Below, piece after piece: positions 6,403 through 13,828 of a DNA stretch of 64,000 bases. Source of the stretch: Planctomycetota bacterium (lineage in GTDB: Bacteria > Planctomycetota > Planctomycetia > Gemmatales > Gemmataceae); contig VGXS01000004.1 in assembly GCA_016873225.1 (NCBI GenBank), positions 62,001-126,000 of the forward strand, in the 5' to 3' direction. Every line of letters starts with the position of its first letter. Within the stretch, counting starts at the first letter, position 1. The notes beneath the pieces were generated by a model. That model did not search any database, was not told where the DNA came from, and was given only the letters and a program-made list of their open reading frames with translations. The position numbers were made by a program, and so were the translations under genes.

Positions 6403-9400
6403 TCAGGTTGCGGCATCCTCGGCGACCACGATCTGACGGGTGGCCTCTTCGGTGACGGCGCGTCCTTCACCAAACATCAGCAGCAGTGGGCTCGCGATGT
6501 AAATTGAACTGTATGTTCCAACGATCACGCCAATCACCATCACGAAGGCGAAGAGGTGAATCCCCTCGGCGCCGCTGAAATAGAGCACCACGACCACCAG
6601 CCATGTGGTCAGCGATGCCAACACCGTTCGGCTGAGGGTCTGGTTGACGCTGTCGTTGATCATTTCCTCGGTGAGAAGCGGATTACGGCCGCGCACCTCA
6701 CGGATTCGGTCGAAAACCACGATGGTGTCGTTGACCGAATACCCGACAAGGGTCAACAGCGCCGCCACGGCTGGAAGGTCAATCTTGAAGTCCTGAATCT
6801 GGAAGATTGTCGACAAGCCGGGAATACCGACGAGGTAATGACAAATGGCGATGGCTCCGAGCGTGAAAAACAAGTCATGAACCAGGCACAGCAGCGCGGC
6901 CAGGCCGAATGTCCAGTTGCCAAAGCGGAGCCACAGGTAAAGCACGATGGCCAGCCATGAGGCCACGATCGCCCCCATGGCTTTCCCTTGCGTCGCGCCC
7001 GCCATGCTGGCGTTGAAGTTATCCAGCCTCTCAGGCTGTGGATTGGCGGCATATCGAGCCTTGACATCCTCGAAGACAGCGGCCAATTCCGTCGTTGACA
7101 CGGGTTCAAGAAACACGAGTTGGAAGTCGGAGTGACGCCCCGCCGTGCTCTTGCCAACAGGATCGACCCTCGCGCTGGCCAGCGCGGATGAGGGTATCTG
7201 GTTTCCTTTCTTGGCCCTGGCCTGAAGCGAATCCTTGACAACCCTCGAGACCTGGTCGAGTGTCGCCTCGGTGGAAAAGCTGAACTGAACCGTTGAAGCT
7301 GAAGATCCGGCCTTGCCCTTCTCACCGACTTGGAAACTGGCGAGGCTGTTCTTTTCAAGGTCATCGCCCAGAACACGGGCCACCTCGGAAGCCACCTTGT
7401 CGGTAGAGATTTCGGAGGTTCGCACGGTGAAGAACTTGCTCGCCGCCCCTTCCGAGGAACCAGCGATGAAAATCTGCTCGACCTTCCTGTCAGGCAGGCT
7501 GGATGAGTTGAACCTGTCGACAATCCAGGCCATGTCGCGGGGCGTCTTCAAGGCCCCTGTGTAGGCTGTTCCTCCATTGAAATCGATGTCGAGTCCCTGC
7601 TTTCCGCGAGCCAGGAACAGGGCCCCGCCGGCAACCGTCAGGAAAAGGGTGATGTAGAACATGGCCCAGCGAATGCGCATGAAGTTGATGCGGGGATTCC
7701 TGAACATGTGGAGCATGTTGAGTTCGGTTGGGCGGGACACATGCAGCCACATGTTGAACATCGTGCGGGTGAGGTACAGCGAGGTGAAAAGGCTGATGAT
7801 CAGCCCGGCGGTGAGGCTGATGCCGAACCCCTTGAGTTGGTCGTTGCCCACCACATAAAGCACGATCGCGGTGAAGATGCTGCTCAGGTGGGTGTCGATG
7901 ATCGTGGGCAGGGCCCTGTCGTAGCCGTTCCGGATGGCAACCACAAGACTGGCGCCATTCTGCCTTTCCTCCCGAAGTCGCTCGTATATGAGCACATTCG
8001 CGTCAACCGCCATTCCAAGGGTCAGCACGAGACCGGCGAGGCCTGGCAGGGTGAATGTCGCCTGAACCAGCAGCATGAACGCCACCGTCAGGGTGAGGTT
8101 GGCGAAAAGCGCGATGCAGGCGACCACGCCGGCGAATCGGTAGTAGTACACCATGAAGGCCAGCACGGCGATGAAAGCGCCGATGATGGCATAGGCGCCC
8201 CGGAGGATTGTCTCAGCGCCCAGGGTCGCGCCCATGTTGGCCTCGCTGGCCGGCCGGTTGCTCAAGGTGGCCGGCAAGGCGCCGGCGCGAAGGATGCGGA
8301 TCAAGTCGTCGAGTTCCGCCTGGGTGAAGTCGCCCGTGATTTGGCCGGAATCGCTGATCCCGGATTGGAGGGTAGGAGCCGAGTGGATCTGCCCGTCGAG
8401 GATGATGCTCAGGCGACTGCGGACATTTCGGGAAGTGAGGTCGTAGAACTTGCGGGCGCCTTCTCCGTCGAGGGAAAAGCCGACTGCCGGTTCGCCGCGG
8501 CCTCCCATCGTCCGGTAGACGGCCGTCAGCGATCCGCCATCAACAGCCTTGCCTTCTTCCGGCTCGCGAACAAGCACCCAGTATTCCGCCTGCTTTTGAT
8601 CCTCGACATCTTTCTTGCCAAGGTAAGGCGTCTGGCGAAGCTCGGGCTTGATGTCGCGCTTGTAAACAAGCATCCCCTCGAGTTCGCAGGGGCGGGTGCC
8701 GTCGGCCAATTTCCAGTTGGCCGAATCCCGGGCGGCGTTGTTGAGTTGGAGGCCGGTGGTCACCCCGCCATCGGTTCGCCCGTAAAGCATCGCCTTGCCG
8801 AGTTCAACCCAGCGGTAGCGATGGCGATTGGCGGCCGAACCCGACCGCACCGTGAACAACCCGGGATCCTGTCCGGCGGTATTGCCCGTCCTTCGGGGAG
8901 GCTCAGGGGCCTGCCCGGGAAGTTTGCCACTTTCACGGGCCTGGAACTCGGCGTTTGTTTTCAGGGAAGAGAAGTACGCCTTGGCGGCCTCGAACGCCTC
9001 GGCATCATCATCGGCGCGCGCCAGGATGGCGAATTGAAGCAAACCCTGCTGGGTGATGCGTGACTTGATTCGCTCGATGTCATTTTCAGACAAGCCAACC
9101 TTCCCGCCCGTGGCGGCGCGGTAGGCCGCAACCTTGGCCTTGACGGCATCAGCATCCTTGGCCAATCCGGTCGCCACCTGTTCGAGCCGGGCGGTTTCAT
9201 CGAGTGCGATCGAGGCGAGGTCATTCCTTGCCTCCTGCGGAATCAGCTGGCCTACTTGCTCGACCAACTGTTCCCAACGCTTGAGACGGGCCTGCTCCTG
9301 GTTCCGGCCGCCAAAAGGCAGCACGATTTCAATGCGGGGGGGGTCACCGGGAATCGGGCGGACCGTGATGTTGTAAAGGTCGGCGGGATCGATTCGGCGC

Positions 9401-9675
9401 TTGAGGGCGGTGGTGAGTTCCTCCAGTCGGGCGTTGAGGTCCTCGTTCCGCCCCACTCCACCTTGGTTTCGCGATTGGTCCAGTTCATAAACGAGGGTTG
9501 TTCCCCCGCTAAGGTCGACACCCATGCGGAATGTCAGGCCCGGATCCCCGGTGAGATAGTGCGACAAGGCGACACCGATCACCACAAGGGAAATGATGAA
9601 CGGCACAAGACAGATCACCAAGCGACCTGCGGTGACGCCCAGGCGATCCTGCAAACGCTGAAAGAACCTTTCCAA
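6403..9675 (-). CDS. secDF: Fused protein translocase SecD-SecF
   Basis: 1090 aa, carrying both accessory subunits of the Sec translocon in one chain. The SecD half has a first membrane helix at about 20-42, the D1 motif VDLSGGTTLVYEL near 53-65, a long extracytoplasmic domain, and a helix bundle with GMAVDANVLIYERLREE near 548. The SecF half begins near residue 657 (FRNPRINF), has DIDFNGGTAY in its own first periplasmic segment, and GYSVNDTIVVFDRIREV near 977. Known SecDF uses the proton gradient to pull exported proteins outward. It is the last gene of a tgt-yajC-secDF cluster, 27 bases after yajC. Confidence 0.96.
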   Translation of the reverse strand: MERFFQRLQDRLGVTAGRLVICLVPFIISLVVIGVALSHYLTGDPGLTFRMGVDLSGGTTLVYELDQSRNQGGVGRNEDLNARLEELTTALKRRIDPADLYNITVRPIPGDPPRIEIVLPFGGRNQEQARLKRWEQLVEQVGQLIPQEARNDLASIALDETARLEQVATGLAKDADAVKAKVAAYRAATGGKVGLSENDIERIKSRITQQGLLQFAILARADDDAEAFEAAKAYFSSLKTNAEFQARESGKLPGQAPEPPRRTGNTAGQDPGLFTVRSGSAANRHRYRWVELGKAMLYGRTDGGVTTGLQLNNAARDSANWKLADGTRPCELEGMLVYKRDIKPELRQTPYLGKKDVEDQKQAEYWVLVREPEEGKAVDGGSLTAVYRTMGGRGEPAVGFSLDGEGARKFYDLTSRNVRSRLSIILDGQIHSAPTLQSGISDSGQITGDFTQAELDDLIRILRAGALPATLSNRPASEANMGATLGAETILRGAYAIIGAFIAVLAFMVYYYRFAGVVACIALFANLTLTVAFMLLVQATFTLPGLAGLVLTLGMAVDANVLIYERLREERQNGASLVVAIRNGYDRALPTIIDTHLSSIFTAIVLYVVGNDQLKGFGISLTAGLIISLFTSLYLTRTMFNMWLHVSRPTELNMLHMFRNPRINFMRIRWAMFYITLFLTVAGGALFLARGKQGLDIDFNGGTAYTGALKTPRDMAWIVDRFNSSSLPDRKVEQIFIAGSSEGAASKFFTVRTSEISTDKVASEVARVLGDDLEKNSLASFQVGEKGKAGSSASTVQFSFSTEATLDQVSRVVKDSLQARAKKGNQIPSSALASARVDPVGKSTAGRHSDFQLVFLEPVSTTELAAVFEDVKARYAANPQPERLDNFNASMAGATQGKAMGAIVASWLAIVLYLWLRFGNWTFGLAALLCLVHDLFFTLGAIAICHYLVGIPGLSTIFQIQDFKIDLPAVAALLTLVGYSVNDTIVVFDRIREVRGRNPLLTEEMINDSVNQTLSRTVLASLTTWLVVVVLYFSGAEGIHLFAFVMVIGVIVGTYSSIYIASPLLLMFGEGRAVTEEATRQIVVAEDAAT

Positions 9676-9702: not shown

Positions 9703-10065
9703 TCATTTTTTTTTGTCCCGCGCCGCGGCGGCCTCTTCCTCGCGAGTCAAGTTCCGTCGGATGGAACCGCGGCTCACCCTGATCCGCGCGTTTTCGTCGA
9801 TCTTGAGCAAGACCTCGTCCCCTGTTTCAGGCAGCGCTGAAATTGTTCCATAAATGCCGGCGGCGGTCAGCACGCGATCGTTCTTGCGCAATCCTTTTTG
9901 GAACTCCTCAGCCTCGCGCCTGTCACGATTGCCTCGCATCAGCATGCTGACGGCAAGAACCACCAGGAGGATCCCGAAAGGAACGAGGTTCCACCAAACC
10001 GGGGCAGCCGGTTGCTCACCGGAGCTTTCCGCTTGCGCCAGCAGGATGAAAGCCGGGATGATCAT
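9703..10065 (-). CDS. yajC: Preprotein translocase subunit YajC
   Basis: 120 aa from the ATG at 10065; the longer reading frame would cover the end of tgt. One membrane helix (NLVPFGILLVVLAVSMLM) is followed by a basic, charged cytoplasmic domain with LRKNDRVLTAAGIYGTISAL, the YajC hallmark, and a lysine-rich tail. The stretch before the helix is longer than in many YajC proteins and begins with a second hydrophobic segment (MIIPAFILLAQA), perhaps a cleaved signal. YajC associates with SecDF. It lies between tgt (46 bases upstream) and secDF (27 bases downstream), the usual order. Confidence 0.92.
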   Translation of the reverse strand: MIIPAFILLAQAESSGEQPAAPVWWNLVPFGILLVVLAVSMLMRGNRDRREAEEFQKGLRKNDRVLTAAGIYGTISALPETGDEVLLKIDENARIRVSRGSIRRNLTREEEAAAARDKKK

Positions 10066-10111
10066 GCAAGGCGGGCCATCACCAGTAAACCCTGTGCGAC
10101 AAACCATTAAC

Positions 10112-11221
10112 TTAAAGGTCGCATGGGTCAGCGACAAGCCAGCCTGATCGCCATGCCGAGAATGATCCGGCGGTAATCGCTTCCCGCGCTCCAGCCATCA
10201 TGCGCTGATAAAATCTTATATTGTGAGCACTAAGCAATATCGGCCCCAGCATCTCGCGACTTGCAAGCATATGGTGAATATAGGCCCTGCTAAAGCCAGA
10301 ACATGCCGGACAATCACACTCCGCATCCAATGGGCGAGCATCATCCCGAAAGGCCGCGTTCCTCAGCCTGAGTTCTCCATCGCGTGTGAAGGCCTGGCCG
10401 TTCCGACCGTTTCGGGTGGGCAGCACGCAGTCAAACATATCGATGCCTGAAGCGACGGCGGCGAGGATATCTTCCGGCCTTCCAACACCCATTAGGTAAC
10501 GCGGTTTCAACTCGGGCAGCGCGGCGGCGCAGGCGGGTAGCGCCTCAACCATGGCTCCGGCCTTCTCCCCAACGGAAAAACCTCCCAAGGCATATCCGGG
10601 AAAGTCCATCGCAACCAACGCTTGGGCGCATTGCCTTCTCAAGTCCATGTTGAGGCCGCCTTGAACAATGGCGAACTGGGCTTGGTCGAGTCGGGTTTGG
10701 GCGTCGCGGCACCTCTTGGCCCAGGAAATGGTGCGGGCCACGGCGCGCTCCAGTTCCGTTTCCTGACACTCCGCGGGTGGGCACTCGTCCAAGACCATGG
10801 CGATGTCGGAGCCCAGATTTTCCTGGATGGCAATCGCCTTTTCTGGCGTCAAATCAATCATTCGTCCATCGACATGGGAGCGAAAAACAACGCCCGAATC
10901 GGAGATCGACCGGGTTTCAGCCAGGCTGAAGACTTGATAGCCACCCGAGTCAGTGAGAATGGAGCCTTGCCAGTTCATGAAACGGTGCAAGCCGCCCAGC
11001 CTTGCGATGCGGTCATCACCGGGCCGAAGATGCAAATGGTAGGTGTTGCCAAGCACGATCGAGGCGCCGGCTTGCCATACTTGGCCAGGCAAAAGTCCCT
11101 TAACCGTGCCCAAGGTGCCAACGGGCATGAAGGCGGGCGTTTCAACTTCGCCATGGCCGGTACGAAGAAGCCCGCGACGGGCGGCGCCGTCGCGGGCCTT
11201 GAGTTCAAATGAAATCGCCAT
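10112..11221 (-). CDS. tgt: Queuine tRNA-ribosyltransferase (tRNA-guanine transglycosylase)
   Basis: 369 aa, normal length. It exchanges guanine at position 34 of His, Asp, Asn and Tyr tRNAs for preQ1. Visible motifs are GNTYHLHLRPG, ILTDSGGYQVFSL with the catalytic aspartate, ALGGFSVGE, and MFDCVLPTRNGRNG with the nucleophile aspartate. The zinc site is CDCPAC followed by a distant histidine in LSAHN. It precedes yajC and secDF as in many bacteria, and follows the TPR/alpha-CTD gene by 27 bases, so all four are probably one transcript. Confidence 0.96.
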   Translation of the reverse strand: MAISFELKARDGAARRGLLRTGHGEVETPAFMPVGTLGTVKGLLPGQVWQAGASIVLGNTYHLHLRPGDDRIARLGGLHRFMNWQGSILTDSGGYQVFSLAETRSISDSGVVFRSHVDGRMIDLTPEKAIAIQENLGSDIAMVLDECPPAECQETELERAVARTISWAKRCRDAQTRLDQAQFAIVQGGLNMDLRRQCAQALVAMDFPGYALGGFSVGEKAGAMVEALPACAAALPELKPRYLMGVGRPEDILAAVASGIDMFDCVLPTRNGRNGQAFTRDGELRLRNAAFRDDARPLDAECDCPACSGFSRAYIHHMLASREMLGPILLSAHNIRFYQRMMAGAREAITAGSFSAWRSGWLVADPCDL

Positions 11222-11248: not shown

Positions 11249-12568
11249 TCACTCCCCGCGAAGGGCCAAGCCCCTTTCCCGAAGCTTTTCGCGAACCTCG
11301 TTCAGCGATGTGATGCCGAAATTCCTGGCTTCAAGAAGTTCGTCCGCCGATTTGGCAACCAACTCGCCAATGCTGTTGAGAGCCAACCGGCTCATGCACT
11401 TTCGGGCTCGAACCGACAGCTGGAGGTCGGATGTCGGAGCTGCCAACTTGATTTGCTCGGCTTCGGTGAGTTCGAGGGGTGGCCGATAGGTGCTTCCTTC
11501 ACCACCCGCCTCCAAGGACTGCCCCAAGCGGAGGTTTTTGGCATCGAGGATTTTCTTGACCTCGTCGAGCGAGGTTTCACCAAAGTTCTTGTTGTTGAGC
11601 AACTGGTCTTCGGTGACACGGGTCAGGTCGCCAATCGTCTTGATGTTCAGCCTCTTCAGGCAATTCCTCGCCCTCACCGAAAGCTCGAAATCAAAGATCG
11701 AGACTTCGAAAATGTGGCTGGGAACGGCCGCGGCCGTCGTGCCATCGGCTGAAACGACCATCGAGATCGATGCCTGGGCGTCCCGGGCCAGCAGCCGCGC
11801 GGTCTCATTGGCGGGTTGCCCGACCTGCACTTGACGGAAGCATTCAAACGCCTTTTCAAACCTGCCCTGGTCCTCGTAAAGGATGCCAAGGTTGGTCAAG
11901 GTCCCGGCCTGGACGGGGGGCTGTTGGCGGCATCGCTCATAAAAGGCGATCGCGTCATCATCGTTGCCGGCAATGTCGTTGAGCCGGCCAAGCTGGAACA
12001 GGGATGCGGCATGGCCCGGGTCGTTCTTGATCGCGGCCTCGAATGCCTCGGCACCCTTGGCCAAGTGGCCCTGATTCAGAAGCAGGCGTCCGTTCTGGTA
12101 GTGGTATTCAGCGGAATGGCTCGCCAAGTCCTTGTGCTTGTCAAGAATCTCCCGGCACTTGTCATGCTTGCCGGTTTCCCTGAACAAGCCTACTCTCTGG
12201 AGGTTCACCTGGGCGGCGTTGTATCCGCTCTTCTCTGCCTTTTCGAAAGACTTGAAGGCCTCTTCATACTTGCCGGCAGAGGCCTGCAGCCTTCCAAGGT
12301 AAAAGGCGGCCAATGGACCTTCGGCCTGGGCCAGATATTGGGAAGCCTCGTTGCCATGCCCAAGAAAATAAAGCGAGATTCCAAGCTTGAGGCAAAGCTT
12401 CTTGGCGGCGTCAGGTTGGGCGTTGCCCAATTTCTTTTTCAAGGTGTCCGCGGCGTCGCGCAGGACCTTGGCCTGCGTCTTGTCTGTCTGCAGCGCGTTT
12501 CGCAACTGCTGGACGGTGCCGGCGTCACAATCCTCTTTTTCGACCATCAAAACCTTCAGGTCGATCAT
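11249..12568 (-). CDS. TPR protein with two RNA polymerase alpha C-terminal-like domains
   Basis: 439 aa. Residues about 60-255 form a series of tetratricopeptide helix pairs (for example FYLGRLQASAGKYEEAFKSF and LGILYEDQGRFEKAFECF). Two alpha-CTD-like domains follow, at about 290-350 and 380-437. Each reads LSVRAR-x-C, then IG-L, then NFG-x-TSL-EV, the helix-hairpin-helix core of the polymerase alpha subunit's DNA-binding domain. The arginine equivalent to E. coli R265 is kept in both (R299, R387). The N268 equivalent is N302 in the first copy but K390 in the second, and the K298 position is threonine in both. No alpha N-terminal dimerisation domain is present. Function unknown; a transcription-linked or nucleic-acid-binding scaffold is inference. 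It is first in the tgt-yajC-secDF direction. Confidence 0.85.
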   Translation of the reverse strand: MIDLKVLMVEKEDCDAGTVQQLRNALQTDKTQAKVLRDAADTLKKKLGNAQPDAAKKLCLKLGISLYFLGHGNEASQYLAQAEGPLAAFYLGRLQASAGKYEEAFKSFEKAEKSGYNAAQVNLQRVGLFRETGKHDKCREILDKHKDLASHSAEYHYQNGRLLLNQGHLAKGAEAFEAAIKNDPGHAASLFQLGRLNDIAGNDDDAIAFYERCRQQPPVQAGTLTNLGILYEDQGRFEKAFECFRQVQVGQPANETARLLARDAQASISMVVSADGTTAAAVPSHIFEVSIFDFELSVRARNCLKRLNIKTIGDLTRVTEDQLLNNKNFGETSLDEVKKILDAKNLRLGQSLEAGGEGSTYRPPLELTEAEQIKLAAPTSDLQLSVRARKCMSRLALNSIGELVAKSADELLEARNFGITSLNEVREKLRERGLALRGE

Positions 12569-12715
12569 GCCATTCCACCTCGTGGGAGTTGTTCGCTGCT
12601 AGTGTGAATGCCTTGGAGGACCGGATGAACCGGTCGCTACGCAAGATGTTATTGTATCTCAAAGCGGGCATTCCGGGCAAGGGGCACTCTCCCTCCCGGC
12701 GTCGGAGACCCACCC

Positions 12716-13828
12716 ATGGCACCGCGCCGCCCCGCCGAAACTCGCAACCCCGCCTGCTATGCCCAAACCACACCCGGACTGGAAACGGTGGCTGCCGCGG
12801 AAATCCGGGAAAGGCTAGGCGGGGAGATTGTAAGAACAGCGTCGGGCTTGGTGGTTTTCAGGGTCGAAGAAATTGATGACCAGTTGCTCGAACTGCAAAC
12901 CGTCGAGGATGTCTTTCTTTTGGCTTGGGGAACAAATGACCTGACGAGGAGGGCGGCCGACCTCGACCTTATCGAGAATTGGACGGCCGAGAAGCCGGAT
13001 TGGCCCAACCTGCTCAAAATCCACCATGCCATAAGGCCAAAGCCCAAGGGTACGCCCAGCTATTGGCTCGTGGTCCAGCAGGAAGGTCGACATGTCTATC
13101 AGAGGCACTCGGCAAGAAAATCGCTGATTCGAGGTTTGGGTGCCGTCATTCATCCGCGATGGAAGGTCCAGGAGGAATTGGCGGACCTCGAAATCTGGCT
13201 TTCCATCCATGAGCAGCAGGCGGTTTGCGGAGTCAGGCTCTCGGATCGCACGATGCGCCACCGACAATGGAAAAAGGAACATCGCCCCGCCTCCCTCAGG
13301 CCGGTTGTCGCGGCAGCGATGGCTCGCCAGATCGGCGCGCGGCCCGGCTTGAGAATCCTTGATCCGATGTGCGGGGTGGGAACGGTGCTGGCGGAGTCGC
13401 TGCGATTGGCGAGACAGTCGCGTGAAAGGGCCGATCCCGTTTTGGCGGGGGGCGACATCGACCCCGACGCGCTCCAATGCTCCGCCATCAACCTTCGAAG
13501 TTGGACGCCGGCGCTCCTATGCCGTTGGAATGCGCGGCGACTCCCGCTCGCCGACAGCTCGTTCGATGCGGTGGCATCCAACCTGCCTTTCGGCAAGCAA
13601 TACGCGGCCGGACAAGACCTCGGAGATCTTTACGGCGGCGTGCTGGCGGAAGCCGACAGGGTGCTGGTTCCGGGGGGAGTGGCGTGCTTCCTGACCAGCG
13701 AGGCCGCCCTCGCGAAGGAAGTCGCTTCCGCCCGGGGTTGGAAACCCAAGGAAACCATCCATGTCGAGGTTCTTGGCCAACGCGCCGCGATCATGACTTG
13801 GCGCATCCCCGCGGATAGATTGGACTGA
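12716..13828 (+). CDS. THUMP-type class I SAM-dependent RNA methyltransferase
   Basis: 370 aa. The N-terminal 170 residues look like a ferredoxin-like plus THUMP module (CYAQTTPGLETVAAAEI at the start, SARKSLIRGLG before the catalytic domain). The methyltransferase domain has SAM motif DPMCGVGTVLAE near residue 220, GGDIDPDAL, and the catalytic motif SNLPFG near residue 285, in the style of guanine-N2 RNA methyltransferases. The closest families I recall are Trm14/TrmN (m2G6 in tRNA) and RlmL-type 23S rRNA enzymes; I cannot separate them by eye. It is divergent from the TPR/alpha-CTD gene across 147 bases that must hold both promoters. Confidence 0.8.
   Translation: MAPRRPAETRNPACYAQTTPGLETVAAAEIRERLGGEIVRTASGLVVFRVEEIDDQLLELQTVEDVFLLAWGTNDLTRRAADLDLIENWTAEKPDWPNLLKIHHAIRPKPKGTPSYWLVVQQEGRHVYQRHSARKSLIRGLGAVIHPRWKVQEELADLEIWLSIHEQQAVCGVRLSDRTMRHRQWKKEHRPASLRPVVAAAMARQIGARPGLRILDPMCGVGTVLAESLRLARQSRERADPVLAGGDIDPDALQCSAINLRSWTPALLCRWNARRLPLADSSFDAVASNLPFGKQYAAGQDLGDLYGGVLAEADRVLVPGGVACFLTSEAALAKEVASARGWKPKETIHVEVLGQRAAIMTWRIPADRLD

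Follow-up and report, generated by a model that had tools for sequence, protein, structure and literature searches.

The C-terminal domain of the RNA polymerase alpha subunit (alpha-CTD, PF03118) is a main docking site for the activation of transcription in bacteria. R265 and N268 of E. coli alpha are well-established residues of DNA binding, and changes at N268 abolish UP-element activation (PMC11434276). Outside RpoA, alpha-CTDs are carried by BREX PglW kinases (NF033442) and by small stand-alone alpha-CTD proteins (NF005841), both of which give weak model matches to the protein described here. TPR superhelices, such as those of O-GlcNAc transferase (OGT; 1w3b) and of designed consensus TPRs, are the closest known counterparts of its N-terminal half.

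The gene is located at 12568..11249 on the minus strand of the window (the whole stretch of 64,000 nucleotides analysed), and its open reading frame of 439 codons translates to 439 aa. The AlphaFold model of the whole protein has a mean pLDDT of 93.5 and a pTM of 0.67. Its N-terminal half, approximately residues 1-270 (11759..12568), is a confident superhelix of model helices, which Foldseek places close to consensus TPR proteins and the OGT TPR domain. Several Pfam TPR families match this part, the best with an E-value of 7e-18, and membership is assigned to TPR_2 (63.7 bits, cut-off 27) and to other TPR families. The C-terminal 165 residues are occupied by two alpha-CTDs. Copy 1 (approximately residues 286-350, 11519..11713) is more conserved than any other region of the protein. 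A flexible linker (approximately residues 351-374, 11447..11518), whose pLDDT falls below 50 at residues 357-364 and which is the least conserved among the regions compared, separates it from copy 2 (approximately residues 375-437, 11258..11446). All of these features lie on the minus strand. The preliminary description of this DNA had proposed a TPR array followed by two alpha-CTDs with no polymerase assembly domain. Pfam, the PDB sequence search, AlphaFold and the Foldseek and VIA-align comparisons confirm the array and the two domains, and Pfam gives no alpha-NTD match.

PF03118 matches the protein in two stretches, with a whole-protein E-value of 8e-39 and a score of 131.6 bits. Taken alone, copy 1 scores 78.4 bits (E 3e-22) and copy 2 62.4 bits (E 3e-17), at a curated cut-off of 23.8. 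A better match to an unrelated helix-hairpin-helix family would have spoken against this identity, but the best such family in Pfam, POLH-Rev1_HhH, reaches only an E-value of 0.03. Searched with phmmer against the PDB, copy 2 matched nothing other than RNA polymerase alpha chains. When the C-terminal half is modelled on its own, both domains align to solved alpha-CTDs in VIA-align, the best rows giving a Z of 11-13 and an rmsd of 0.6-2 A across 57-78 residues, and Foldseek matches the same model to solved alpha-CTDs at an E-value of about 1e-5. Among the structure matches are alpha-CTDs solved on DNA (1lb2, 3n4m, 3n97, 9zum). By sequence and predicted fold, both C-terminal domains are genuine RNA polymerase alpha-CTDs.

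In copy 1, R299, N302, N328, G330, T332, S333 and E336 correspond to E. coli R265, N268, N294, G296, K298, S299 and E302. In copy 2, R387 stands at the R265 position and K390 at the N268 position. These positions were surveyed in 184 copy-1, 181 copy-2 and 46 planctomycete RpoA domains. The preliminary description had placed the R265 equivalents correctly, and the arginine is found in 99% of copy 1 and 98% of copy 2. Its observation that the N268 equivalent is kept only in copy 1 holds phylum-wide: asparagine is present in 95% of copy 1, and copy 2 carries K (72%) or R (16%), 88% together. Copy 1 further keeps N294 in 98%, G296 in 100%, S299 in 97% and E302 in 98%, as well as the acidic residues D259 (88%) and E261 (91%). 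Position 261 of copy 2 is mostly N. All six DNA-contact positions are intact in 173 of the 184 copy-1 domains and, when K or R is allowed at 268, in 158 of the 181 copy-2 domains. Position 267 is arginine in 94% of copy 1, whereas RpoA has mostly T or S. The mean charge of the DNA-facing positions is +3.6 in copy 2, +2.6 in RpoA and +1.9 in copy 1.

The threonine at the K298 position, read earlier as a sign that the copies had diverged, is indeed present in both (in 95% of copy-1 and 90% of copy-2 domains). The divergence reading does not stand, because threonine is normal in planctomycete RpoA (97%, n=46); the RpoA of the source genome (L001 736..1731) has it too. Lysine occupies this position in the E. 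coli, Mycobacterium and Streptomyces sequences compared.

Copy 2 is absent from two genomes of one family (L092, L093), although the contig continues. A degenerate copy 2 that has lost DNA-contact residues was observed in L053, L054, L059, L060, L021, L024, L029 and L030. Copy 1 is intact in both groups. Thus, copy 2 looks dispensable in the lineages with a missing or degenerate copy. L115 was rejected as a further loss, since its sequence stops at the contig end.

A match to the protein at an E-value of 1e-25 or better was found in 277 of 294 sampled genomes, with one match in each; the survey covered genomes of the phylum Planctomycetota. A single full match is present in 152 of the 154 high-quality genomes. 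When 30 weakly matched genomes were searched with a family profile, all gave strong matches (E 1e-82 to 1e-139), most of them near full length. The 17 apparent absences gave partial matches only in the profile search, and most are fragmented assemblies. Among the matches listed, the named relatives belong to Gemmataceae, Isosphaeraceae, Pirellulaceae, Planctomycetaceae and the like, and the best 80 loci among named genomes are planctomycetes by record title. Therefore, the protein is near-universal and single-copy within the sampled Planctomycetota, a much stronger result than the earlier statement that similar planctomycete proteins exist. The order is constant across the orthologs, with the TPR part first, then copy 1 and the flexible linker, and copy 2 last, at the C-terminal end or close to it. 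At an E-value of 0.001, PF03118 matches three domains in all in the source genome, two of them in this gene and the third in RpoA, and three are also found in most of 59 genomes of the same genus, family, order and class.

Several further observations were made in these searches. Two loci, L124 and L156, are both titled Candidatus Kuenenia stuttgartiensis; L124 is 83% identical to the protein and groups with Gemmataceae, and the titles look wrong. Weaker alpha-CTD matches were present in frames of about 1420-1470 aa (G121:C4:1479137, G315:C203:33943, G315:C46:17784, G309:C68:46327, G048:C1:825964), possibly BREX PglW-type kinases, as the PglW model carries such a domain. Frames of 99-155 aa with alpha-CTD matches (G167:C1:4088706, G205:C14:61784, G121:C4:337088, G313:C79:3769, G296:C1:5715151) are perhaps stand-alone alpha-CTD proteins. 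Among the matches listed for plasmids and phages there is no TPR fusion; they cover only 14-20% of the query, and several are annotated as RpoA. N-terminal fusions were considered as a clue to function and rejected: the long frames (up to 1202 aa) have Arg-rich, low-complexity extensions, a composition to be expected when frames in GC-rich DNA run too long, and inspection by eye gave no credible extra domain.

A tree built from 118 alpha-CTDs sets copy 1 and copy 2 apart, each being confined to one side of a branch (SH-aLRT 91 each); the deeper forks of this short domain lack resolution. The separation of the copies into two clades indicates a single ancient duplication, older than the radiation of the sampled phylum. 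The common threonine at position 298, compared with a small outgroup sample, points to planctomycete RpoA as the probable source of the tandem.

As described previously, the gene leads the tgt-yajC-secDF cluster, with which it is co-directional. It ends 27 bp before tgt (queuine tRNA-ribosyltransferase; 10112..11221), which is followed by yajC (9703..10137) and secDF (6403..9675, start codon approximate), all on the minus strand and identified from their open reading frames and sequence. Among 138 loci with 2.5 kb or more of downstream sequence, tgt was present downstream in 57, yajC in 30 and secDF in 34. In 96 of these loci, co-directional subsets of ruvC-ruvA-ruvB-queH-spoIID-tgt-yajC-secDF follow the gene with their order kept. 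None of the ruv, queH, spoIID, tgt, yajC and secDF genes was detected downstream in the other 42, where the protein is still kept, and the neighbourhood is therefore a weak guide to function. In other bacteria yebC often precedes ruvC; a replacement of yebC by this gene is not indicated, as the source genome has a yebC homologue at another site. Upstream of the gene, a sigma-70-like promoter match lies at 12651-12680 on the minus strand (TTGCCC, 18 nt, TACAAT; 9/12), one occurrence against a mean of 0 in shuffles, as a consensus match only. The divergent neighbour at 12716-13828 on the plus strand looks, from its sequence, like a THUMP-type RNA methyltransferase. Rfam gave no RNA element match in the window.

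The near-universal retention in single copy, including at loci without ruv or tgt neighbours, argues that the protein has a function of its own. We put at about even the chance that it is a phylum-wide DNA-binding adaptor, which would carry a TPR-bound partner to promoter-like DNA or to RNA polymerase. The two flexibly tethered alpha-CTDs would contact AT-rich, UP-element-like DNA in its minor groove, and the protein would act like an extra pair of polymerase alpha-CTDs in trans. Copy 1 would bind DNA canonically through its R265 residue set, and possibly sit beside sigma region 4 via its acidic 259 and 261 positions. Copy 2 would provide a second, more basic DNA contact. It may bind DNA differently, because it has K or R at the position where changes inactivate the E. 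coli domain at UP elements. The TPR superhelix would hold the partner, which would so be brought to promoters or RNA polymerase. We infer, in this model, that the protein binds DNA, that it is located at promoters and that there is a TPR partner, whatever its identity. The model is supported by the match of both domains to alpha-CTDs solved on DNA, by the retention of the contact residues, by the DNA-facing positions of copy 2 being more basic than those of RpoA, by copy 1 being the most conserved region, and by the TPR superhelix. Against it, the DNA-facing charge of copy 1 is slightly below that of RpoA, and one lineage has a decayed copy 2 or none; the conserved residues could instead serve protein contacts or the fold. 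A broader role is conceivable, though less likely than not: a previously undescribed general transcription factor of Planctomycetota, whose TPR adaptor presents an alpha-CTD pair in trans, which arose from planctomycete RpoA as the phylum began and has been kept by essentially all of its members.

The acidic positions 259 and 261, which we take to belong to the sigma-contact surface of E. coli alpha, bear also on a different reading. Soluble alpha-CTDs might occupy activators, sigma factors or other contacts of the RpoA alpha-CTD, and so damp or redirect transcription, as the RpoA-like surfaces kept in copy 1 would allow. However, near-invariance of the complete DNA-contact set would not be required of a pure decoy, nor would a long conserved TPR scaffold, which makes this competitor role improbable.

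The presence of RuvA downstream in 42 of the 138 loci, with RuvC or RuvB in some, would fit a DNA repair, recombination or nucleoid protein tied to RuvABC, whose alpha-CTDs serve as general minor-groove or junction binders; the alpha-CTD fold is helix-hairpin-helix-like. Nevertheless, tgt, yajC and secDF, whose functions are unrelated, belong to this string too, none of these genes was detected downstream at 42 of the 138 loci, and the fit of both domains to alpha-CTD far exceeds that to helix-hairpin-helix families of repair proteins, so that we judge such a role improbable. Equally improbable is an elongation or coupling factor, with alpha-CTDs docked on NusA, the RNA polymerase core or the ribosome and a TPR half linking transcription to translation or secretion: alpha-CTDs from NusA- and NusG-containing complexes (8y5l, 8y5t, 7ubn) are among the structure matches and yajC and secDF follow the gene at roughly one locus in four, but function cannot be read from a fold match, gene order guides only weakly, and the residues do not set this reading apart from DNA binding.

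A near-universal protein with two free-standing alpha-CTDs that keep their DNA-contact residues would represent a new means of recognising promoters or recruiting polymerase, and gene regulation in this phylum is poorly known. For Planctopirus limnophila, a genome-wide essential-gene map has been published (PMC10632474), which makes the question approachable there. No paper describing the TPR and two alpha-CTD architecture was found in a partial coverage of the literature, and no NCBIfam family fits the protein. As far as found, the domains are known, and their combination, the near-universality in the sampled phylum and the residue pattern are undescribed.

Similar to the alpha-CTD of RpoA, both copies possess the R265, N294, G296, S299 and E302 equivalents, and copy 1 also that of N268; with planctomycete RpoA, both share the threonine at the K298 position. 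The protein differs from RpoA in carrying two tandem alpha-CTDs on one chain, with a TPR scaffold instead of the alpha-NTD; in addition, K or R takes the N268 position in copy 2, and both copies have arginine in place of the T or S of RpoA at 267. It does not belong to RpoA, since the best RpoA model gives 120.7 bits at a cut-off of 302, the alpha-NTD is missing, and the genome encodes a separate RpoA. Its scores lie far from the cut-offs of NF033442 (30.4 against 990 bits) and NF005841 (38 against 115). Unlike BREX PglW and the stand-alone alpha-CTD proteins, it has no kinase domain, bears its copies in tandem on a TPR scaffold, and is retained near-universally in single copy. Compared with O-GlcNAc transferase, it lacks the catalytic domain and joins the TPR superhelix to a C-terminal alpha-CTD tandem.
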